NCBI GenBank assembly: GCA_913043025.1
Contig: CAJWLM010000026.1
Location: 1-39,692, forward strand
Source: an uncultured Rhodospirillaceae bacterium
GTDB taxonomy: Bacteria > Pseudomonadota > Alphaproteobacteria > UBA8366
Direction: 5' to 3'
DNA: 39,692 nt
Made by a program: the position numbers and the translations under genes. Under the pieces are notes generated by a model. It was not told the origin of the DNA. It saw nothing but the letters and a program-made list of their open reading frames with translations, and ran no database searches. This document shows, piece after piece, positions 29,541 through 39,245 of the stretch. Position 1 is the stretch's first letter; every line of letters begins with the position of its first letter.

Positions 29541-30020
29541 CTATTTAAAACTGGACAGTTGCTCTTGCCTCCAGCCCCAAACAACCTTCCAAACACCTTT
29601 GTTATTCGCCAAACAAAAGGTTGTACCATTTCCGGGGCTGAACTCTATAACCCATCTACGCTCGTCACCAGTGAGTAGTTTCGCACTGGCGCGCAGGAGA
29701 AAATCACCGTGCCCAGTCATCATAATGTCTCCCCCCCCTGACTCAACATGGTCGATGAAGGGCTCGACCGGATCTTCCGAAGCAATTCCGTAGCTTGAAA
29801 CGGAGACTGGTACAGGCTGGCCCAAACTTGCTGCCACGCGTTCCCCCGTTTCTCTGGTCCACCGCTTATCGCTGTGAATTATTTGCGACGGTATTGCACC
29901 TATACCTTTCATGAACAAGCCAAGTCTTTCGGCTTCACAAACACCAGCTTCGCTTAAATGACGTTCTGGGTCTTGTTCGGCACTGAGTGCGTTGGCATGA
30001 TGGGTTAAATAAACTTTCAT
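29541..30020 (-). CDS. SixA-like histidine phosphatase with altered RHG motif
   Basis: 159 aa, phosphoglycerate-mutase/histidine-phosphatase fold. The N terminus KVYLTHHANALS aligns with the usual …RHG-A: the nucleophile His is kept (His8) but the preceding Arg is His and the Gly is Ala. DPERHLSEAG, IIHSDKRWTRETGERVA and the second catalytic His in MMTGHGDFL are as in SixA. It would dephosphorylate phosphohistidine or a small phosphoester; altered catalysis is possible. AAGGGA lies 6 nt before the ATG. It is divergent from the dioxygenase operon. Confidence 0.87.
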   Translation of the reverse strand: MKVYLTHHANALSAEQDPERHLSEAGVCEAERLGLFMKGIGAIPSQIIHSDKRWTRETGERVAASLGQPVPVSVSSYGIASEDPVEPFIDHVESGGGDIMMTGHGDFLLRASAKLLTGDERRWVIEFSPGNGTTFCLANNKGVWKVVWGWRQEQLSSFK

Positions 30021-30224: not shown

Positions 30225-31208
30225 ATGATATCACCCCAGACAGTGAATGATCTTAGCTCCTGGAGAGGGCCAAAAATGAATTCCAGCATGGAATGGCTCT
30301 ACCCAATAGGAAAGGATGAAATTTCAGATTTAGAAAGTGCCCTTCAACGTGTAAAGGCACAAAATATCCCGCTCTTGCAAATAACAAAAGAAGATTTTTC
30401 TCTGCCGTGCCTTTCCACAAAGTTGCAGAGGATTTTAAATGATGTGCAACATGGGCGTGGCTTTGCTGTCCTCCGCGGCATACCAATTCATCAATTTTCG
30501 GATTCCGATAATGAAATTATAATGTGGGGAATTGGGACATACTTGGGACGAGCTATTTCTCAAAATTCTAACGGGGACCTATTGGGACGTGTCTTCGATC
30601 ACGGGGTGCATATGCATACAGAGCGGGTTCGGGGGTACATGACGCCAGACCATCTACGTTTTCACTCGGACCGTTGTGACCTAGTTACTTTGGGTTGTAT
30701 CAGAAAGGCGAGAGATGGTGGATTAAGCCGTTTAGTAAGCATGACTGCACTTCATGACGAAATTCTCGCTACCCGCCCAGACCTGCTTGAGCCATTCTAT
30801 CGGGGATTTATGTATGTTGTTAGCGAACTTTCTGGTGATACCAAACCCATACGAGTTCCAACGTTTAGTGTTGTTGAAGGAGTTCTAAGTTGTAGACTTC
30901 AGCGTAATCAAATTGAGATGTCTGCAAAGAAGTGCGGGATTCCCCTTACTGAAATTGAACGAGAAGCTTTAGATCTGCTAGATAAACTAGCGGACAGTGA
31001 GGCATTCGTACTTGAAATGGATCTGGAGCCCGGCGATATTCAGCTTTGTAACAATTATGTCATAGCCCATGGACGGACTGACTTCACTGACAGCCCAAAT
31101 AAAAATGAGAAGAGGCTTATGCTACGACTTTGGCTAAAATTTGCAGAAGCACGGCCCGTGGGTGACGCATTTTTTGATTTTGATGGCATTCCTAAGGCTT
31201 CTCCATGA
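30225..31208 (+). CDS. TauD/TfdA-superfamily Fe(II)/2-oxoglutarate dioxygenase (pair A, first)
   Basis: 327 aa. The facial triad is visible: FHSDR gives His147 and Asp149, and NNYVIAHGR gives the distal His282; Arg301 in LRLWL is the likely 2-oxoglutarate ligand. GFAVLRGIP and AISQNSNGDLLGRV mark the clavaminate-synthase-like branch of TauD/TfdA rather than classical taurine or 2,4-D enzymes. It should hydroxylate or oxidatively cleave an organic substrate using O2 and 2-oxoglutarate. GGAGG precedes the ATG. It is followed, with a 4-nt overlap, by a related gene; the pair starts an operon with a membrane peptide and a FAH-family enzyme. Confidence 0.9.
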   Translation: MISPQTVNDLSSWRGPKMNSSMEWLYPIGKDEISDLESALQRVKAQNIPLLQITKEDFSLPCLSTKLQRILNDVQHGRGFAVLRGIPIHQFSDSDNEIIMWGIGTYLGRAISQNSNGDLLGRVFDHGVHMHTERVRGYMTPDHLRFHSDRCDLVTLGCIRKARDGGLSRLVSMTALHDEILATRPDLLEPFYRGFMYVVSELSGDTKPIRVPTFSVVEGVLSCRLQRNQIEMSAKKCGIPLTEIEREALDLLDKLADSEAFVLEMDLEPGDIQLCNNYVIAHGRTDFTDSPNKNEKRLMLRLWLKFAEARPVGDAFFDFDGIPKASP

Positions 31209-32194
31209 TTAATTATACAAAATTCACTGGATCAGCCTGCTGGAAAGGTGCGGACCTTATTAAGACTGATGATTGGATATGGACTTTAACGAAAAGCGAG
31301 ATCGAGGAACTAAGAAATGTTGTAAATGATACTTTGGATCTAAAATTGGAGAGTATAACTCGTCAACGGTTTCATATTCCTGCCCTTGCACCCCGCTTAG
31401 AAAAGCTGGTCGACGAACTCCGTAACGGAAGAGGGTTCGCCGTATTGCGTGGACTGCCCGTCAGTGAAATGTCCAGTGAGGAAGTGTACCGAGCCCACTG
31501 GGGTATTGGAACTCATCTTGGCTTGGCACTTTCTCAGAACTCTTTTGGGGATATGCTAGGCCATGTCTATGATGAAAAACCAGACCCCGGTGAAGTAAGT
31601 CCTCGCGGATACCGTACGAACCAATTGCTACGGTTTCACACCGATAGGGCAGATGTCGTCAGCCTACTGTGCCTTAGGAAGGCTTTATCTGGAGGGGAGA
31701 GCAGTATTGCAAGTTCAATGACCATCTACAATGCTATTCTTGAGCATCACCCCGAATACCTTCCATCGCTAACACGCGGTTATATGCATGCACACGCCGA
31801 AGACATTGGGCTCGATGAGCCTAGGCGACTACCAGTATTCCACGAGCAAGATGGCGTCTTGAGTTGCCGACTTAACAGAGGTCCAATTGAAAATTCTCAT
31901 CTACGCGCAAGTATTCCTATTACACCAGAGGAGGCACGTGCACTAGTAGCCTTCGACTTCTATGCAGAACACCCTGATTACAGGCTGGACATGCTGCTCC
32001 TCAATGGAGATATTCAGTTCGTAAACAACTATCGGGTAGTGCATTCACGTAAAGAATTTACGGATGGGGAGAAAGAACAAGATCAACGACACATGGTTCG
32101 ACTTTGGCTCAACTACTATGGAAAGCCATGGCCGCGTGGCCCGCATTTAAGTGATTATAATGGCGTTCCTAAGAAACTAGACCGGGAACAGTAG
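31205..32194 (+). CDS. TauD/TfdA-superfamily Fe(II)/2-oxoglutarate dioxygenase (pair A, second)
   Basis: 329 aa, a paralogue of the preceding gene (shared RGFAVLRG, WGIGT-LG-A-SQNS-GD, LRFH-DR, LSCRL-R). Metal ligands His145 and Asp147 in FHTDR and His280 in NNYRVVHSR are intact, and Arg299 in HMVRLWL probably binds 2-oxoglutarate. The N-terminal ~70 residues and the loop after GHVYDE differ from its partner, suggesting a different substrate or a heteromeric arrangement. Translation is coupled through an ATGA overlap. A 31-residue membrane peptide follows 19 nt downstream. Confidence 0.9.
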   Translation: MINYTKFTGSACWKGADLIKTDDWIWTLTKSEIEELRNVVNDTLDLKLESITRQRFHIPALAPRLEKLVDELRNGRGFAVLRGLPVSEMSSEEVYRAHWGIGTHLGLALSQNSFGDMLGHVYDEKPDPGEVSPRGYRTNQLLRFHTDRADVVSLLCLRKALSGGESSIASSMTIYNAILEHHPEYLPSLTRGYMHAHAEDIGLDEPRRLPVFHEQDGVLSCRLNRGPIENSHLRASIPITPEEARALVAFDFYAEHPDYRLDMLLLNGDIQFVNNYRVVHSRKEFTDGEKEQDQRHMVRLWLNYYGKPWPRGPHLSDYNGVPKKLDREQ

Positions 32195-32213
32195 CCCTGG
32201 CAGGAAGGTAAAG

Positions 32214-32309
32214 ATGAAAACTTACTTAATCGTGAGCGTTGCGATCTTTGCGGTCATAACCCTCTACGGATTATACACTGGGCAATTTGATGCTATGCTT
32301 GCCAAATAG
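32214..32309 (+). CDS. 31-residue single-span membrane peptide
   Basis: Too short for routine gene calling, but it has a good ribosome binding site (AGGAAGG, 5 nt before the ATG) and lies in the operon between a dioxygenase (19 nt) and the FAH-family gene (40 nt). The product begins MKTYLIVSVAIFAVITLYGL: one Lys, then a ~18-residue hydrophobic span, then a short polar tail ending LAK. It resembles neither a lipoprotein nor a cleavable signal peptide (no AxA site), so it should sit in the inner membrane. Possible roles are a transporter accessory or an enzyme anchor, both speculative. Confidence 0.55.
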   Translation: MKTYLIVSVAIFAVITLYGLYTGQFDAMLAK

Positions 32310-32349
32310 CAGGCTGAATTCTAATCCAATTTAAAAGGGGACATATTCG

Positions 32350-33135
32350 ATGCGTATTGCGAGATTTAATAAGGACGGTCGGCCATGCCACGGAATTATT
32401 GAAGGTGAAACTATTCACGAAGTAGAGGGTGGTCTTTTTGACGGCCTCAATAAGACCGGGGAGACCCACGCATTAAGTGCAACCAAGCTTTTGGTCCCGT
32501 TTAAACCAGAAGTGTTTTACGCAGCGGGCTTAAACTACGCTGAGCATGTGAAAGAGCAAGCAGAAATGCACGGGAGAGAACCTAATCTCCCGGAAAAACC
32601 AGATATAGGATATCGGGCTAATAACGCGTTAATTGCCCATGATGAGGACGTAGTAATCCCCGCACACGCCCCTGACACCGTTCAATACGAAGGGGAAATC
32701 GTAGCGATTGTCGGTAAAAAAGCTAAAAATCTAACAAAAGAAAATGCTCTCTCATGTATCATGGGATACACAATTGGAAACGATGTTAGCGAACGCACTT
32801 GGCAAACAGGCGATCGAACGATGTGGAGAGCGAAAAATACAGATACATTTAAGCCGATGGGGCCATGGATTGAGACCGATATTGATCTGGAGGCCTTAAC
32901 CACGACAGTTCGTGTTAATGGCAAGCAGACGATACAGTTTCCGACTAATAATTTCCATTTCGACATTCCAACTTTTATTGAAGCAATGACTAGCTGCCTC
33001 ACATTGCACCCGGGCGACATGATTTGGATGGGAACAGAAGGACGGGCGCCAAATCTACAACACGGCGATGTTGTAGAAGTGGAGATCGACGGAATAGGGC
33101 TTCTCAGAAATCGCTTCGTACGAGAGGGTCAATAG
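32350..33135 (+). CDS. Fumarylacetoacetate-hydrolase family enzyme
   Basis: 261 aa, FAH/HpaG/YcgM fold. VQYEGEIVAIVGKKA supplies Glu114 and Glu116, and GYTIGNDVSER supplies Asp145 of the divalent-metal site. RAKNTDTFKPMGPWI and PGDMIWMGTEGRAPNLQHGD are standard later motifs. Members hydrolyse C-C bonds of acylpyruvates, decarboxylate or isomerise meta-cleavage intermediates of aromatic catabolism. AAGGGG lies ~9 nt before the ATG. Being last in an operon with two dioxygenases suggests that it acts on a ring-cleavage or diketone-type intermediate; the substrate is not determinable. Confidence 0.93.
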   Translation: MRIARFNKDGRPCHGIIEGETIHEVEGGLFDGLNKTGETHALSATKLLVPFKPEVFYAAGLNYAEHVKEQAEMHGREPNLPEKPDIGYRANNALIAHDEDVVIPAHAPDTVQYEGEIVAIVGKKAKNLTKENALSCIMGYTIGNDVSERTWQTGDRTMWRAKNTDTFKPMGPWIETDIDLEALTTTVRVNGKQTIQFPTNNFHFDIPTFIEAMTSCLTLHPGDMIWMGTEGRAPNLQHGDVVEVEIDGIGLLRNRFVREGQ

Positions 33136-33220
33136 GGAACCCCCAGGCGAGAAATATTTCTATGCAAGAATTCGATTATTTTTCTGCGCCAGGGTCAACT
33201 TATCTTGGTTGAGGTGCTAT

Positions 33221-34201
33221 TTACGCTGGAATGACCTTATCTCCCGCAAATTGGCACCTCCACATTACTCTTGGTTGCGTCGGGTTGACTTCTTCGCGCC
33301 TGTGCATCGCAGACCTATTATCCCAGACTAGAAAGTCGCCAACCTGCCAACTATGCGTCCAAGCATACTTGGGCTGCGTGGCGTGTGCCCAAATTCTGTC
33401 AAGTAGTTCCTCGCTGTCGTTCGGGATCCCCTCAATATACTGAGATGGCCACGTACGCCGCCGCCCGAGGTAAAGAGCCTTCTTTTGAGAGACAGGATGG
33501 ATACGAACCATGGGATGCATAGGCCCAGGAACCTCTTCTGGACAAGTCGGTTGGGTAACACCGGGGCGGAGAACGTTGGCTGAGTTGCGCGTAGCGTCTT
33601 GTTTAGAGCGTTTTCCCTCGATAACTTTTTTTAGTTCATCAGGCAATTCTTCATATGCCAAATATTGATTATTAAAAGAAGTCTGCCCACTATCATCGTC
33701 CGGAATTACTAAGGAATAAAGAGTGCTTCCAGCAGGGGGCTCATCGATGTAGGAATTATCGGAGTGCCAAACAACCTCTAAGCTTCCAAGGCCATCATTT
33801 TTCTCCACCGGGTTACCATCTTCGCCAAGGTTGCACAAAATCGATATATCGTTGTCCATTGCATGGTAAAGAGACTTTTTCTTCGCTCTCTCATAAAATT
33901 TTTTGTTCGCCCCTGCCTGGGGTTTGCCGAATACTCTAGCAGCAGCCATATAGTGATCAGGTTCCAGCTTTTGGTTGCGAAATAAAAGCACCAAATGATC
34001 TGCCCAAGCCTGTCTCAGCGCCGCAGCCACATCTTCAGGGATGGGCTTTGACAGATTAACACCTTGTATTTCAGCGCCCACCGCCTTGCCAGTAGGAACC
34101 ACATTCAGGGTTTCTAATGTATTTTGCTCCAGTTCTACGGGCGAAGGCACGACTGGTGCATGCGTATACTTTGCAGCAAAATCATGAGTTTCCATCGACA
34201 T
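33221..34201 (-). CDS. TauD/TfdA family dioxygenase (pair B, distal)
   Basis: 326 aa, closer to the classical TfdA/TauD architecture than pair A. WHSDNSYIDEPP gives His146 and Asp148, WDNRSAMHRR gives His300, and Arg311 (eleven residues on) is the likely 2-oxoglutarate ligand. The N-terminal ~30 residues are extra relative to its neighbour. A strong AGGAGG ribosome binding site precedes the ATG. It is the last gene of the leftward amidohydrolase-coxL-dioxygenase-dioxygenase run and converges on the FAH gene over 85 bp. Alpha-ketoglutarate-dependent ether cleavage or hydroxylation is the expected chemistry. Confidence 0.92.
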   Translation of the reverse strand: MSMETHDFAAKYTHAPVVPSPVELEQNTLETLNVVPTGKAVGAEIQGVNLSKPIPEDVAAALRQAWADHLVLLFRNQKLEPDHYMAAARVFGKPQAGANKKFYERAKKKSLYHAMDNDISILCNLGEDGNPVEKNDGLGSLEVVWHSDNSYIDEPPAGSTLYSLVIPDDDSGQTSFNNQYLAYEELPDELKKVIEGKRSKQDATRNSANVLRPGVTQPTCPEEVPGPMHPMVRIHPVSQKKALYLGRRRTWPSQYIEGIPNDSEELLDRIWAHATQPKYAWTHSWQVGDFLVWDNRSAMHRREEVNPTQPRVMWRCQFAGDKVIPA

Positions 34202-34291
34202 TTTTTATTCCTCCTGAGGCCACAAAACCTATTTAGATAATATTATTTCGTACCGTAAAATATATTTCATGCTTTCTCATTTTGAAACTGC

Positions 34292-35224
34292 TTAGTTCTT
34301 CCAAGCAGAAATAATCGGCTCACCTTTTACAAGTGCTCGGTGCATCACCCGCGCTTGGGTATGATCAATCGGATCACGTTGGTGCATCGTACATCGATTA
34401 TCCCACAGAATAAGGTCGTGCTTCCGCCAACAATGTGTCCATTTGAGGTGGTCCTGTGTTGTGTGCTCCCATAATCGATCTAGCAACCGATCGCCCTCTT
34501 CGTTAGGCAACTCTTCAATGTAACTCGAATTACCTTTATACCTGCGACCAAGATATAAGCATTGCTTACCAGTTTTTGGATGAATGCGAACGATCGGATG
34601 TGCCGGCCCAGTAATCTCTTCGCGAGTTTCAGGTTCTTTTGCAGTCGGCCGTAGTTTCCCGGCGGTGTTCCGGAGATTGTCATGTCGAATATGCTTGCCT
34701 TGGATAGCCTTTTTAAGGTCGCTCGGCAATTCTTCGTAAGCTTGATATTGATTATTAAAAGAGGTTTCACCTCCCCCATTAGTTGGCACTATTTCTGACC
34801 ACAATAGAGTGCCCCCCGGAGGTATATCGACATATGAGTTGTCAGTATGCCAGAGTGCCTCAAGGCTTCCAACACCCGCAGTCTCGCGTGCTGGTTTACC
34901 GTCCTCGCCAAGGTTCGAAACCAAGCTAATGCCAGCGTGCTTCGCAACTCGGTGTGTTGCACCCGCATGAAAACCTGCCTTGAGAAAAAATGCACGGCTA
35001 CCCGCCACTTGCTGTCCGCCAAACACGTCAGCGACCGATAGAATGTCCTCATCTGACAAATCCTGATCACGGAAAAGGAGAACCATGTTTTGGAACCAGC
35101 ATTCGAGTAGGAGATCTCGCACGTCATTGGATACCGGTTGACGGAGATCTAAACCAAAAACTTCAGCTCCAACAGCCGCTCCTGTTTGCACAACTTCAAA
35201 ATTGCTGTTACCTGCATTCCTCAC
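34292..35224 (-). CDS. TauD/TfdA family dioxygenase (pair B, proximal)
   Basis: 310-aa paralogue of the next gene; long shared stretches include LGEDGKPA, SFNNQYQAYEELP, KLRP and PIVRIHPKTGKQCLYLGRR. The metal site is His126/Asp128 (WHTDNSYVDIPP) and His281 (WDNRCTMHQR), with Arg292 as probable 2-oxoglutarate ligand. Translation starts at a GTG with GGGGGG about 6 nt upstream; no in-frame ATG fits better. It lies 91 nt after the CoxL-like gene and 90 nt before its paralogue. Both pair B enzymes appear catalytically complete. Confidence 0.92.
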   Translation of the reverse strand: MRNAGNSNFEVVQTGAAVGAEVFGLDLRQPVSNDVRDLLLECWFQNMVLLFRDQDLSDEDILSVADVFGGQQVAGSRAFFLKAGFHAGATHRVAKHAGISLVSNLGEDGKPARETAGVGSLEALWHTDNSYVDIPPGGTLLWSEIVPTNGGGETSFNNQYQAYEELPSDLKKAIQGKHIRHDNLRNTAGKLRPTAKEPETREEITGPAHPIVRIHPKTGKQCLYLGRRYKGNSSYIEELPNEEGDRLLDRLWEHTTQDHLKWTHCWRKHDLILWDNRCTMHQRDPIDHTQARVMHRALVKGEPIISAWKN

Positions 35225-35315
35225 AATTTACCCCCCTATGATAATTGTTCGTCACACAACATTTAGAATAGATACCGCAATAAAATTCTCTGGGTCAGTA
35301 TTTATTTTATTTGTC

Positions 35316-37652
35316 TCACCCTTGATTCTGCCTTGCTGATGTGATGGCTCGCCATACAACTTCCGGTGTCATAGGCATATCGAGGTGATGAACCCCTAGC
35401 GGTGCAAGAGCATTTATCACCGCGTTTGCAACACATGGCAAGGCGCCTACCGTGCCCGCCTCACCAGCCCCTTTGATGCCAGTTGGGTTAGTTTTGCAAG
35501 GAACAGGGTTAGATCCAACGGCAATTGAACTAATGTCATCTGCTCTAGGCATACAATAGTCCATAAAACTTCCGGAAATCAGCTGTCCATCATCATCATA
35601 AAAAATATTTTCCATCAGTACCTGGCCAAGACCTTGTGCCACGCCACCATGTATTTGGCCCTTTAACAACAGAGGATTAACAACAACACCAACATCATCG
35701 ACAACTGAATACCTTAGTATGTCAACACGCCCGGTATCCGGATCTATCTCTAATTCGCATACATGAGTACCATTAGGAAATGTCTCAGCCTCCGGGAGAT
35801 GAGAATACATTTCATCTAGCCCAATTTCCACATCATGAGGAATTCGGTTTGGGGAAAAAGAAGCCTGTGCCACTTCCATTATATTCATAGCCCTATCAGT
35901 CCCAGCGACATTAAAGCTACCATTAGAAAATTCAATGTCTTCCTCGGCAGCCTCAAGATTATGGGCGGCAATTTTCTTAGCTTTTTCTATAATCTTACCG
36001 GATGCGCCAAAAATTGCTGCCCCGCCAAGTTCTGCTGATCTAGACCCTCCCGTGCCCTCACCCATGGAAACTTGGTCCGTATCGCCCTCTATCATCCGGA
36101 TCCTTTCAACAGGAATCCCTAACCTATCAGACAGTATTTGTTTAAAACACGTGTCGTGACCCTGCCCATGACTAATGGTTCCCATGAGAAGCAGCACCGA
36201 ACCTGCCTTGGTAAAGCGAATCTCAGCGTGTTCAAAGCGCCGCCTTCCCCCAGCTTGTTCTATTGTATTTGATATCCCAATGCCACGAAGCATACCTACT
36301 TTTGCTGCCTCCTCGCGACGAACTTCAAATCCGTCGTAATCTGCAAGTTTGAGAGCCATATCAAGGCCTTTCTCAAAGTCACCCGAATCATATTTGAAGG
36401 TGAGTGCAGTCTGAAACGGAAGAGCATCCTTAGGTATGAGATTGAGCCGACGCAGCTCGGCTGGATCAATCTCCATTTTACGTGCCGCAAGATCAATTAG
36501 CCTTTCCATTATATAAGCCGCTTCCGGTCGACCCGCCCCGCGATAAGGAGCAGTGCTGTTTGTATTTGTGAGAACCGCATCCACGTGCACATACATTGCC
36601 TCTGTAGTGTACGTTCCAGCCATAGTGCCAATATTCCCCAACGGAGGGTTAGGCCCCCGTGAAGCCACGTACGCACCAAGATTAGCAATTGTTTTACATT
36701 TCACCCCGAGAAATTTGCCATCTTTAGTCAACGCCAAAGCTGCATCACTTACATTGTCACGGGCATGCGTATCGCTAATAAATGACTCTGATCTTGGTGC
36801 ATACCATTTTACAGGCCTATCCAATAGCTTCGCAGCCCATAGCACCAATACATATTCCGGATAGGTGCCGCCTTTCATACCAAAGCTTCCACCTATGTCA
36901 TCGGAAATAATACGAAAGTTATATTCCGGCTCACCAAATACATTTTCGGCCAAGTCAGCACGAATATTATGCGGCTGCTGCAGACCAGTATGAAGAATGT
37001 AACGACCTTCATGCCTATCAAATTCACCAATACAACCGCGATTTTCCATAGAGTTGGTTGATACCCTATTTATCACAAATTTCTGTTGCACAATGATATC
37101 CGCTCTATCAAACGCAGACATTGTTGCTCCTTCATCACCAACATCGTGACAAAAGGCTATATTGTCGGGACATTCTTCCCATACTGGAACTGAATCTGGA
37201 CCAACCGCGGCCGATGTCCCAACCATCGCCGGCAGCATTTCATACTCAATCTCTATCAGTTCAGCCGCGTCCTTCGCTTGATCCAAAGTCTCTGCAACGA
37301 TGAAAGCAATTTGGTCCCCCACACATCGAATTCTATCGGTTACCAGCGCTGGACGCGGTGGACGAAATATTGGCTTACCATCAGGGCGTTTTGGAGTGCC
37401 TACATCAGTAACAACTCCATTTAATCCCGATTCAATAAAATCTTCACCAGTAAGAACTAACAACACACCCGGCTCGGCAGCAGCGTTTTCTATTCTGATA
37501 TTTTTAATGCGCGCATGCGCCATTGTAGCACGTACGATATATCCATGTACCGTACGAGCAAGGCGAATATCGTCCAAATAACGACCAACGCCTTTCAAAA
37601 GCCGCGGATCTTCGGTCCGCGGAACGGATTGACCAATGGCATATCGAACCAT
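35316..37652 (-). CDS. Xanthine dehydrogenase/CoxL-family molybdopterin-binding large subunit
   Basis: 778 aa. An N-terminal aldehyde-oxidase a/b-hammerhead domain (RYLDDI, VRATMAHARI) is followed by the Mo-cofactor domain. GGSFGMKGG at ~254-262, APYRGAGRPE at ~368-377 and GAGEAGTVGA with the catalytic Glu at ~731 are family motifs; PYRGAGR is the form II/generic hydroxylase signature, not the AYXCSFR of true CO dehydrogenase. It should hydroxylate an aromatic N-heterocycle or aldehyde with water as oxygen source. The FAD (CoxM) and 2Fe-2S (CoxS) subunits normally adjacent are absent in this window. GGAGGG precedes the ATG. Confidence 0.94.
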   Translation of the reverse strand: MVRYAIGQSVPRTEDPRLLKGVGRYLDDIRLARTVHGYIVRATMAHARIKNIRIENAAAEPGVLLVLTGEDFIESGLNGVVTDVGTPKRPDGKPIFRPPRPALVTDRIRCVGDQIAFIVAETLDQAKDAAELIEIEYEMLPAMVGTSAAVGPDSVPVWEECPDNIAFCHDVGDEGATMSAFDRADIIVQQKFVINRVSTNSMENRGCIGEFDRHEGRYILHTGLQQPHNIRADLAENVFGEPEYNFRIISDDIGGSFGMKGGTYPEYVLVLWAAKLLDRPVKWYAPRSESFISDTHARDNVSDAALALTKDGKFLGVKCKTIANLGAYVASRGPNPPLGNIGTMAGTYTTEAMYVHVDAVLTNTNSTAPYRGAGRPEAAYIMERLIDLAARKMEIDPAELRRLNLIPKDALPFQTALTFKYDSGDFEKGLDMALKLADYDGFEVRREEAAKVGMLRGIGISNTIEQAGGRRRFEHAEIRFTKAGSVLLLMGTISHGQGHDTCFKQILSDRLGIPVERIRMIEGDTDQVSMGEGTGGSRSAELGGAAIFGASGKIIEKAKKIAAHNLEAAEEDIEFSNGSFNVAGTDRAMNIMEVAQASFSPNRIPHDVEIGLDEMYSHLPEAETFPNGTHVCELEIDPDTGRVDILRYSVVDDVGVVVNPLLLKGQIHGGVAQGLGQVLMENIFYDDDGQLISGSFMDYCMPRADDISSIAVGSNPVPCKTNPTGIKGAGEAGTVGALPCVANAVINALAPLGVHHLDMPMTPEVVWRAITSARQNQG

Positions 37653-37765
37653 GTACCCTCCAAACTAGTGCACCAGTTTTAATATTAAACGACAATAAAT
37701 GGATACACACATTTTAGTCCATTGCCATACCCCGAAAATTACAGGACACCAAAAGTCGATTATCA

Positions 37766-38662
37766 CTAAAAGTCATACAACTTAGAGGGGTTATCTACGA
37801 AAATCATTTCCCGAGTCGCTTCGTCTGGAATCCAGTCCGCCATTACATCCAAACAGGATGCTTCATCTGGCTTATCAGTTAAAGGAAATTGCGGATGGGG
37901 CCAGTTAGCGGCCCACACTAACCGATCGGGGCGCACTTCCAAAAGTGCCCTGACATAAACGGCGACTTGCTCATAATCAGGGAAATCCCCATTTTTACCG
38001 TGGTGACCATCGGTGCACATATAATAAGGTGCTGATATCTTTATCCAACAACGGCCAGTTTCGAAAAATTTAAGTAAGGCATTAAAACCGTTAGTGTCTG
38101 CCAATTGGCCTGCACCAATTCGCCCGATGTGATCAACTACACAATCTACCGGTAGTTTTCGAAATATATTTACCGCTTCTTCTAACCATACCCCGTCATC
38201 CTGGAACTGTATATGCCAACCCAACGGAGCGAGCTTCTGAGCCATTGTAATGGAATCTTCAAGCTTAAAATCGTCTGCTATCAAGAAAAACCGCAAGCCG
38301 CGAATTCCTTGTTTGTGAAGTTTCCAAAGTGCTTCCTCTGATATGTCTTTCCTGGTAACACAAACGCCGCGAGTTGTTTTTAGCCCTCGCGCGGCTATTG
38401 AGTCCAGTGTACACCGATTATCCGACCCATACGCTGATGGCTGAACGATTACAGCGCGATCGAAACCGAGCCTATCTAACATCTCGTTATAAGCATCTAG
38501 TGAACATATGGGCTCACCTAAACGCCCTGGCCAAAGTGGATATTTTTCTTGCGGCCCATAAATGTGAGAGTGTGTTTCGCATGAGTTTGGAGGTAGTTTG
38601 AGGCGTGGCTTTCTGCCAGAATCTGTTAGAGTAAGTTGCTGCTTATCATTCAATTTCTTCAT
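37766..38662 (-). CDS. Amidohydrolase, 2-pyrone-4,6-dicarboxylate hydrolase-like
   Basis: 298-aa TIM-barrel amidohydrolase (Amidohydro_2/COG3618). ETHSHIYGP supplies the HxH pair (His31, His33), GLRFFL the substrate Arg, and VVDHIGR His178 plus Arg181, all matching LigI-type lactonases. The final metal/general-base Asp of LigI (…TDWPHP) is Asn253 here (AANWPHPQ). It probably hydrolyses a lactone or pyrone intermediate, if active. AAGG lies ~10 nt before the ATG. It is the first gene of the leftward operon, 113 bp before coxL. Confidence 0.88.
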   Translation of the reverse strand: MKKLNDKQQLTLTDSGRKPRLKLPPNSCETHSHIYGPQEKYPLWPGRLGEPICSLDAYNEMLDRLGFDRAVIVQPSAYGSDNRCTLDSIAARGLKTTRGVCVTRKDISEEALWKLHKQGIRGLRFFLIADDFKLEDSITMAQKLAPLGWHIQFQDDGVWLEEAVNIFRKLPVDCVVDHIGRIGAGQLADTNGFNALLKFFETGRCWIKISAPYYMCTDGHHGKNGDFPDYEQVAVYVRALLEVRPDRLVWAANWPHPQFPLTDKPDEASCLDVMADWIPDEATREMIFVDNPSKLYDF

Positions 38663-38948: not shown

Positions 38949-39245
38949 ATGTTGTTCAAGGCCGTTAAAAAAGATTTTCATGTTGCTCCCGGAAACAGGT
39001 ACCGCAAATCAGATGATACTGAGCTAGTCTGGATAATAAAAAATGTTTATACGCCCAGTGGCTTTGAAAAACACGCACGAGCATATCCAACCAATGATCC
39101 AAGTGATGTGCGATTATACGCTGCCTCAGTTTTTGGTGATGTTAGGTTCTTTGATCCTATTCACGTGCAAGTTCAAGATGGCAGGGGATCCGAGTCTAAG
39201 GGACCAGCATTTGCAGAGCCCGCAACTCTAAAACCTGCCGAATAG
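38949..39245 (+). CDS. Hypothetical 98-residue protein
   Basis: Not recognised. Soluble, mixed charge, with no signal peptide or membrane segment; mid region YAASVFGDVRFFDPIHVQVQ is strand-rich, and the last ~20 residues (Gly/Ser/Pro/Ala/Lys) look disordered. The ribosome binding site is poor, and an overlapping open frame exists at 39043-39231, so coding is likely but not certain. It is divergent from the amidohydrolase gene across 286 bp. Confidence 0.5.
   Translation: MLFKAVKKDFHVAPGNRYRKSDDTELVWIIKNVYTPSGFEKHARAYPTNDPSDVRLYAASVFGDVRFFDPIHVQVQDGRGSESKGPAFAEPATLKPAE

Follow-up and report, generated by a model that had tools for sequence, protein, structure and literature searches.

Molybdenum hydroxylases of the CoxL family are usually treated as fixed complexes of the subunits CoxL, CoxM and CoxS (L, M and S below) that are encoded together. 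The window analyzed here, i.e., the whole contig CAJWLM010000026.1 (39,692 nucleotides) of an uncultured Rhodospirillaceae bacterium (assembly GCA_913043025.1), contains an island of seven enzyme genes in which a catalytic CoxL is encoded alone, together with four 2-oxoglutarate dioxygenases, a FAH-family enzyme and a LigI-like enzyme of the amidohydrolase superfamily. Elsewhere in the same genome lies a cox operon that lacks coxL. The explanation favored, with moderate confidence, is that the island is conserved and probably catabolic, and that its lone CoxL uses S, M and the maturation proteins of the operon without L. The broader claim, in which molybdenum hydroxylases are modular, one L-less cox operon serves dispersed, substrate-specific CoxLs and a catabolic locus carries the catalytic part only, is on balance just favored. 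In what follows, the genome is called G000 (3.08 Mb in 65 contigs, with the window as contig C26), G001 and G002 are genomes of the same genus, G005 and G009 belong to the sister genus, and L-numbers denote extracted loci.

A cox operon without coxL

On contig C8 of G000 (100.8-107.8 kb; locus L067, 5823-12846), coxG, coxS, coxM, coxD, coxE and the genes for XdhC and a MocA-type protein follow each other, with 175 bp between coxS and coxM and no coxL. The operon adjoins Mrp-type antiporter genes. In G004 (locus L137), these genes have the same order with coxL between coxS and coxM, and in G003 and G007 an S-L-M set lies next to the same antiporter genes. From this gene order and these neighbors, coxL seems to be gone from an orthologous operon in G000. 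The subunits that are left resemble those of intact operons, S being 72-77% identical to S of three S-L-M operons and M 60-66% to M of five, and the ratio of nonsynonymous to synonymous substitution rates (dN/dS) is 0.062 for S and 0.054 for M.

M of this type is a single-copy gene in 38 of the 43 genomes of the order and in all 21 good genomes. Among the 30 loci that were read, 21 have an adjacent L and nine, from two families, lack it between S and M; in the other eight, judged by coordinates, L is next to M in six, with those of G016 and G027 remaining. G013, a genome of another family that consists of one contig, has an S-M pair without L, and none of its three CoxL matches (E <= 1e-150) is accompanied by S or M over about 3 kb to the left or right. 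The same pattern is seen in G018, with one stretch cut at a contig end; the CoxL of G024 is so close to contig ends that it does not bear on the lone state. The distribution of intact and L-less operons among the genera suggests that the catalytic gene was lost on more than one occasion, namely in the g1/g4 line, in G010 and in family f4.

In the proposed mechanism, the island CoxL would assemble in trans with CoxS (iron-sulfur) and CoxM (flavin adenine dinucleotide) of the C8 operon, and CoxD, CoxE, XdhC and the MocA-type protein of the same operon would mature it. With the L-less operon as the hub, the lone coxL genes of G000, three in number, would be interchangeable spokes. The probable role of the two dioxygenase pairs, the FAH-family enzyme and the LigI-like enzyme is the breakdown of small anionic compounds, either carboxylates or sulfonates. 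Assembly in trans, the substrate and the order of the steps are what we infer here. A shared hub fits the retention of electron-transfer and maturation genes, the absence of L in several lineages and the membership of the lone Ls in the same subfamily. In titles and abstract openings of the open-licence literature, with most subscription papers outside, neither an L-less cox operon that serves lone CoxLs nor this gene cluster is described. If the explanation is correct, CoxL genes found alone would be neither carbon monoxide dehydrogenases nor broken operons, and the substrate range could grow by the gain of a single gene.

The lone CoxL and its relatives

The island CoxL is a full-length match to its family, with the MoCoBD_1/2 and Ald_Xan_dh_C domains. 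It scores 578 bits against the carbon monoxide dehydrogenase model TIGR02416, the cut-off of which is 991. In the PDB, its relatives include carbon monoxide dehydrogenase (8uem, 545 bits), 6-hydroxypseudooxynicotine dehydrogenase (407) and quinoline 2-oxidoreductase (391). Its loop APYRGAGR is what we take to be the form II type, and AYxCSFR is presumably the loop of form I carbon monoxide dehydrogenase. No match to CoxS or CoxM is present on the window contig. Oxidation of carbon monoxide by the island CoxL is made less likely by the cut-off, by the loop and by partner genes that are not on the contig. The nearest named record among the matches listed, 91% identical in CoxL, is in the metagenome-assembled genome Rhodospirillaceae bacterium SP3966 (PBCW01000017, locus L029). 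The lineage is conjectured to be marine.

Lone CoxLs are common in the family. When CoxL, CoxS and CoxM matches of 11 of its genomes were grouped within 5 kb, 39 L-M-S sets, 62 L alone, seven S-M pairs without L, six L-S, two L-M, three M and one S were obtained. This means that 62 of the 109 CoxL loci, several of them at contig ends, have no S or M within 5 kb; among the S-M pairs, the one on G009:C34 is possibly cut by the contig end. G000 itself has three L-M-S sets, three lone Ls on three different contigs, and one S-M pair.

A CoxL tree was built of 58 rows, leaving out open reading frames below 600 amino acids (among them L053 of G000, cut by the stretch end, and L027, which is too short). 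Thirty rows are orphans, 22 have S or M nearby and six lie at an edge. All orphans except one fall in a single clade (100/100) of 39 rows. Its other members are L024, a row of L-S-M type, three edge rows and all six rows that come from S-L-M-type operons; among these six, the contig ends before S in L139 and S is cut in L138. The 15 other rows with S or M fall outside, including L068 and L077 from L-M-S operons of G000 itself. The island CoxL thus belongs with the CoxLs of S-L-M-type operons. Among the named CoxL loci, L024 and L026 have S and M, L021, L023 and L025 are orphans, and L022 and L028 lie at contig edges.

Layout and conservation of the island

The genes of the island, with the short names used below for the seven enzymes (D1, D2, FAH, D3, D4, CoxL and AMH), are the following:

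30225-31208, plus strand: D1, 2-oxoglutarate dioxygenase of the TauD/TfdA branch that also holds the FrbJ-like D2; 93% (G002) and 72% (G005) identical to its orthologues
31205-32194, plus strand: D2, 2-oxoglutarate dioxygenase; 38% identical to D1, which it overlaps by 4 bases; nearest solved structure FrbJ (5eqn)
32214-32309, plus strand: membrane peptide of 31 amino acids with a single hydrophobic stretch by eye; sequence and place conserved
32350-33135, plus strand: FAH, FAH-family enzyme with an Rv2993c-like N-terminus; best conserved of the seven (98% in G002, 82% in G005)
33221-34201, minus strand: D3, 2-oxoglutarate dioxygenase of the TfdA/TauD branch; orthologous to the gene at one end of an eight-gene array in the sister genus
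34292-35224, minus strand: D4, 2-oxoglutarate dioxygenase of the TfdA/TauD branch; orthologous to the gene at the opposite end of this array
35316-37652, minus strand: lone CoxL-type molybdenum hydroxylase catalytic subunit with the loop APYRGAGR
37766-38662, minus strand: AMH, LigI-like enzyme of the amidohydrolase superfamily; Asn253 where LigI has Asp248
38949-39245, plus strand: open reading frame of 98 amino acids at the island edge; 88-90% identical in the genus, 58-62% in the sister genus

The plus-strand set (D1, D2, FAH) and the minus-strand set (D3, D4, CoxL, AMH) are convergent, with 85 bp between FAH and D3. As stated in a preliminary description made from the sequence alone, seven intact enzyme genes and a membrane peptide are present: the translations were read, and profile matches place the enzymes in the families named there. 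None of the seven proteins reaches a curated equivalog cut-off, so a filing under a known operon was rejected, and the earlier impression of a cluster of catabolic-looking enzymes that resembles no operon known to its author still holds. The membrane peptide has no Pfam match; similar peptides occupy the same place between D2 and FAH in G002, G005 and G009, the copies of G005 and G009 lacking an ATG. The 98-amino-acid reading frame has no Pfam or NCBIfam match. Scans for promoters and terminators did not exceed shuffled sequence (14 sites where shuffles averaged 16.9, and 6 where they gave 9.3). At 29541-30020, a homologue of the SixA-like phosphohistidine phosphatase (39 bits, below the cut-off) adjoins lepA, as it does in G002, G005 and G009.

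The neighborhood is found elsewhere; its absence even from close relatives had been named in the preliminary description as one outcome that would refute its reading. In G002, the block from LepA to the 98-amino-acid reading frame is whole, with 89-98% protein identity over the genes compared and 90-98% for the seven enzymes. G005 and G009 keep the seven enzymes with unchanged order and orientation at 63-84% identity, with LepA (87-88%) beside the block. The contig of G001 stops within CoxL, leaving AMH, the 98-amino-acid reading frame and part of CoxL visible. The sister genus has additional genes, namely one dioxygenase before D1 and six between D3 and D4; a quinone-oxidoreductase-like gene, a CobW GTPase and a TauE/SafE exporter were also read in G005. 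Between G000 and G002, dN/dS of the seven genes ranges from 0.02 to 0.107; the island genes are under purifying selection.

Other genera were covered by reading stretches of 20 kb or shorter. Near the AMH relatives of G003, G007, G011 and G022 (about 55% identity), there is no match to window-type CoxL or FAH, and distant TauD genes occur only in G003 and G007. Likewise, CoxL, FAH or AMH of the window type are not found close to the relatives in the D4 clade (G003, G004, G007, G008, G014 and G019). In G014, which belongs to another family, a D4-like dioxygenase adjoins lepA and is followed by two reading frames that are pieces of another molybdenum hydroxylase subunit (L122, 585-5351). The right flank of the island in both genera (L031 and L034) encodes a nitrile hydratase alpha chain, a beta-like protein and an asparaginase, as well as an argininosuccinate-lyase-like enzyme, a Rieske protein and a mandelate-racemase-type enzyme.

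Four dioxygenases and the array of the sister genus

All four dioxygenases match the TauD/TfdA family (PF02668) at 106 to 178 bits, reaching the Pfam gathering score. They retain the His-Asp-His and Arg ligands, as had been described before. In D1 and D2, the iron and 2-oxoglutarate ligands were recognized by eye as His-x-Asp...His...Arg, for D2 also from its alignment to FrbJ, and H126, D128, H281, R292 and R296 are invariant in all 14 aligned sequences, i.e., D3, D4 and 12 relatives. R296 of D4 aligns with the second Arg of TauD, which is presumably anion-binding. The solved structures nearest to D4 are TfdA-type (124.5 bits) and TauD (111.2 bits), and D4 scores 141.7 bits against the TauD equivalog, with a cut-off of 313. 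The earlier label of TfdA-type enzymes holds as a resemblance at the family level and does not lend support to the aryl-ether substrate attached to it.

The dioxygenase tree has 65 rows, made up of 43 proteins of G000 (four from the window and 39 others) and 22 of the sister genus. Six of the 49 matches of G000 are omitted from it, five as reading frames below 250 amino acids and the one on C24 as it has no single reading frame; the D4 orthologue of G009 was lost to the length filter. The four island enzymes form two distant pairs, D1 with D2 and D3 with D4, which lie in different branches. The latter pair and the additional genes of the sister genus make up a clade (100/99) of 17 rows that has no further gene of G000. 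In the sister genus, eight TfdA/TauD paralogues stand in tandem in one array (L033, 2434-10539; L035, 2169-10198); D3 and D4 are orthologous to its two ends. A duplication of D3 and D4 within the genus of G000 is ruled out, as D4 nests inside the array clade. The tree is most simply read as showing an array that already existed before the two genera diverged and of which the genus of G000 retained the two ends.

Three inner array genes also occur in G002, as a 3.1-kb piece on contig C25 (L107, 12729-15894) with 97% DNA identity to G009. The backbone around it is 85-94% identical to G000 and G001, and G000 has a fasciclin-domain gene at that place. Contamination is unlikely, given these flanks against the 97% between the piece and G009, and the piece looks like a recent transfer between the genera. 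Directly to its left are DNA stretches that are repeated in other contigs. Another run of eight TauD-like matches lies about 13 kb to the right of the island in G005 (C31; L050, 3736-11994).

TauD genes as such are not special in G000, as the genome has 49 matches in 3.08 Mb, some of them fragments. With D4 as the query, the density of first-look candidates ranges from 6.0 to 26.8 per Mb over 22 genomes from families f1 and f2. A TauD match is present in 171 of the 288 genomes surveyed across the class, and among 31 rows picked by eye the candidate density is highest in G000, with 15.9 per Mb. The eight-gene array and the displaced three-gene piece show how lineages may build very large oxygenase sets.

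The FAH-family and LigI-like enzymes

FAH matches PF01557 at 189.3 bits (gathering score 23.9) and stays below all equivalog cut-offs shown, for example with 155.8 against 276.4 bits for the HpaG C-terminal isomerase/decarboxylase (TIGR02303). AMH matches PF04909 (Amidohydro_2) at 121.5 bits (gathering score 26.4), and the histidines of its HxH motif, H31 and H33, are invariant in 12 of 12 sequences. Its score for 4-sulfomuconolactone hydrolase (NF042924) is 129 bits, below the equivalog cut-off of 500.

Among PDB structures, AMH is nearest to LigI, with 135 bits to 4dia, which we take to be a LigI mutant, and 133 to 4d8l; it scores 106 bits to 4mup, presumably the galactarolactone isomerase of Agrobacterium. 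Asn253 of AMH aligns with the catalytic Asp248 of LigI (4d8l), a place where 4dia and 4mup also have Asn. Over the 27 rows compared at this position, in which two genes are listed twice, 18 have Asn and nine Asp. At identities of at least 37% there are 17 Asn and one Asp (L011), and at 47% or more Asn is found in all 11 rows (10 genes, one of them twice). The replacement makes hydrolysis of a pyrone by AMH less likely. What remains of the pyrone-hydrolase-like enzyme of the preliminary description is an Amidohydro_2 protein with LigI as its nearest relative in the PDB, and the pyrone hydrolase reading itself is weakened by the replaced catalytic Asp.

Weighing of the explanations

Several observations weigh against the use of a shared L-less operon by the island CoxL. 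Of the genes of the C8 operon, G013 and G018 show just coxG, S and M: over the approximately 7-8 kb downstream there is no match to its D, E, XdhC or MocA, so the operon is not kept whole everywhere. This gap is balanced by the full S-L-M operon of G004 with the gene order of the C8 operon. In the CoxL tree, the orphan L168 lies outside the clade of the other lone ones, while L024 lies inside it with its own S and M. Relatives with an intact S-L-M operon carry lone CoxLs as well, and S and M of other operons could serve the lone CoxL instead. Moreover, the relatives of the island genes sit apart in the other genera that were covered, so that the seven do not have to belong to a single pathway.

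This last point leads to the explanation that there is no shared pathway and that separate scavenging enzymes accumulated beside lepA in a genome rich in genes of this kind, which is considered unlikely. It is in line with the abundance of TauD matches in G000, with relatives of D4 (G007, G014) that stand apart from any relative of the window CoxL, FAH or AMH, with AMH relatives (G003, G007, G011, G022) for which the same holds as to CoxL and FAH, and with the three array genes located elsewhere in G002. However, order and orientation are kept across two genera at 63-84% identity, membrane peptide included, and the D4 relative of G014 is also found beside lepA, followed by pieces of another molybdenum subunit.

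Quite unlikely is a non-aromatic route for a lactone, a sugar acid or a nitrile-derived acid, in which AMH would isomerize or open a lactone, FAH would act on a keto acid, and the dioxygenases and CoxL would oxidize side groups. Such a route would suit the Asn that AMH and 4mup have in common at the place of Asp248, and the nitrile hydratase alpha chain, asparaginase, argininosuccinate-lyase-like and mandelate-racemase-type enzymes in the right flank of G002 and G005. Nevertheless, AMH scores higher against LigI (135 bits) than against 4mup (106 bits), and none of the seven genes encodes a sugar-acid dehydrogenase. PMC6353982 names a galactarolactone-type isomerase and cites a paper on lactone isomerization in the amidohydrolase superfamily.

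It is improbable that the lone CoxL works without the C8 operon, either by itself or with S and M from one of the L-M-S operons. While G000 does have three complete L-M-S sets, the CoxLs of two of them (L068, L077) lie outside the clade of the lone ones, with the third (L053) left out of the tree, and an L-less operon that was kept together with its maturation genes would be left without a client.

Finally, one self-contained aromatic, aryl-ether or N-heterocyclic pathway, as proposed in the preliminary description, is very doubtful: family membership, a block conserved in two genera and the presence of 6-hydroxypseudooxynicotine dehydrogenase and quinoline 2-oxidoreductase among the PDB relatives of CoxL (407 and 391 bits) agree with it, but carbon monoxide dehydrogenase scores higher (545 bits), CoxL stays below its cut-off with S and M not on the contig, the catalytic Asp of LigI is replaced, the seven genes include no member of a ring-cleaving family, and neither PF00775 (intradiol) nor PF02900 (LigB-type) has a match in any of the five genomes searched, a search that had other ring-cleaving families and the gentisate, homogentisate, VOC-type extradiol and coenzyme A-thioester routes outside its scope and positive controls in 4 of 14 for each family.

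Comparison with known systems

Compared with TfdA, TauD and AtsK, the island dioxygenases share PF02668 and the ligands for iron and 2-oxoglutarate, but they stay below the equivalog cut-offs, and eight of their paralogues stand in tandem in the sister genus. FrbJ (5eqn) is the solved structure nearest to D2 (133 bits); unlike in the case of FrbJ, no phosphonate biosynthesis gene was recognized beside D2, with no search aimed at such genes made. LigI (2-pyrone-4,6-dicarboxylate hydrolase, 4d8l) and AMH have in common the residues aligned with HxH, Arg124, His180 and Arg183. AMH differs by Asn for Asp248, a gap at Arg130 and Tyr at Arg217 (numbering counted by hand); Arg130 and Arg217 of LigI are presumably carboxylate-binding.

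CoxL of aerobic carbon monoxide dehydrogenase (TIGR02416; 1n5w, 1ffu, 8uem) belongs to the same family as the island CoxL over its full length, from which the latter differs by a score below the cut-off, by APYRGAGR for AYxCSFR and by S and M that are not on its contig. The Sulfitobacter locus L026 has S-L-M without a match to D, E, XdhC or MocA. The closest counterpart of the C8 operon is the S-L-M cox operon of G004, with which it has the order of coxG, S, M, D, E, XdhC and MocA in common; the difference from such operons is that G000 keeps this order without L and carries lone L genes on other contigs.

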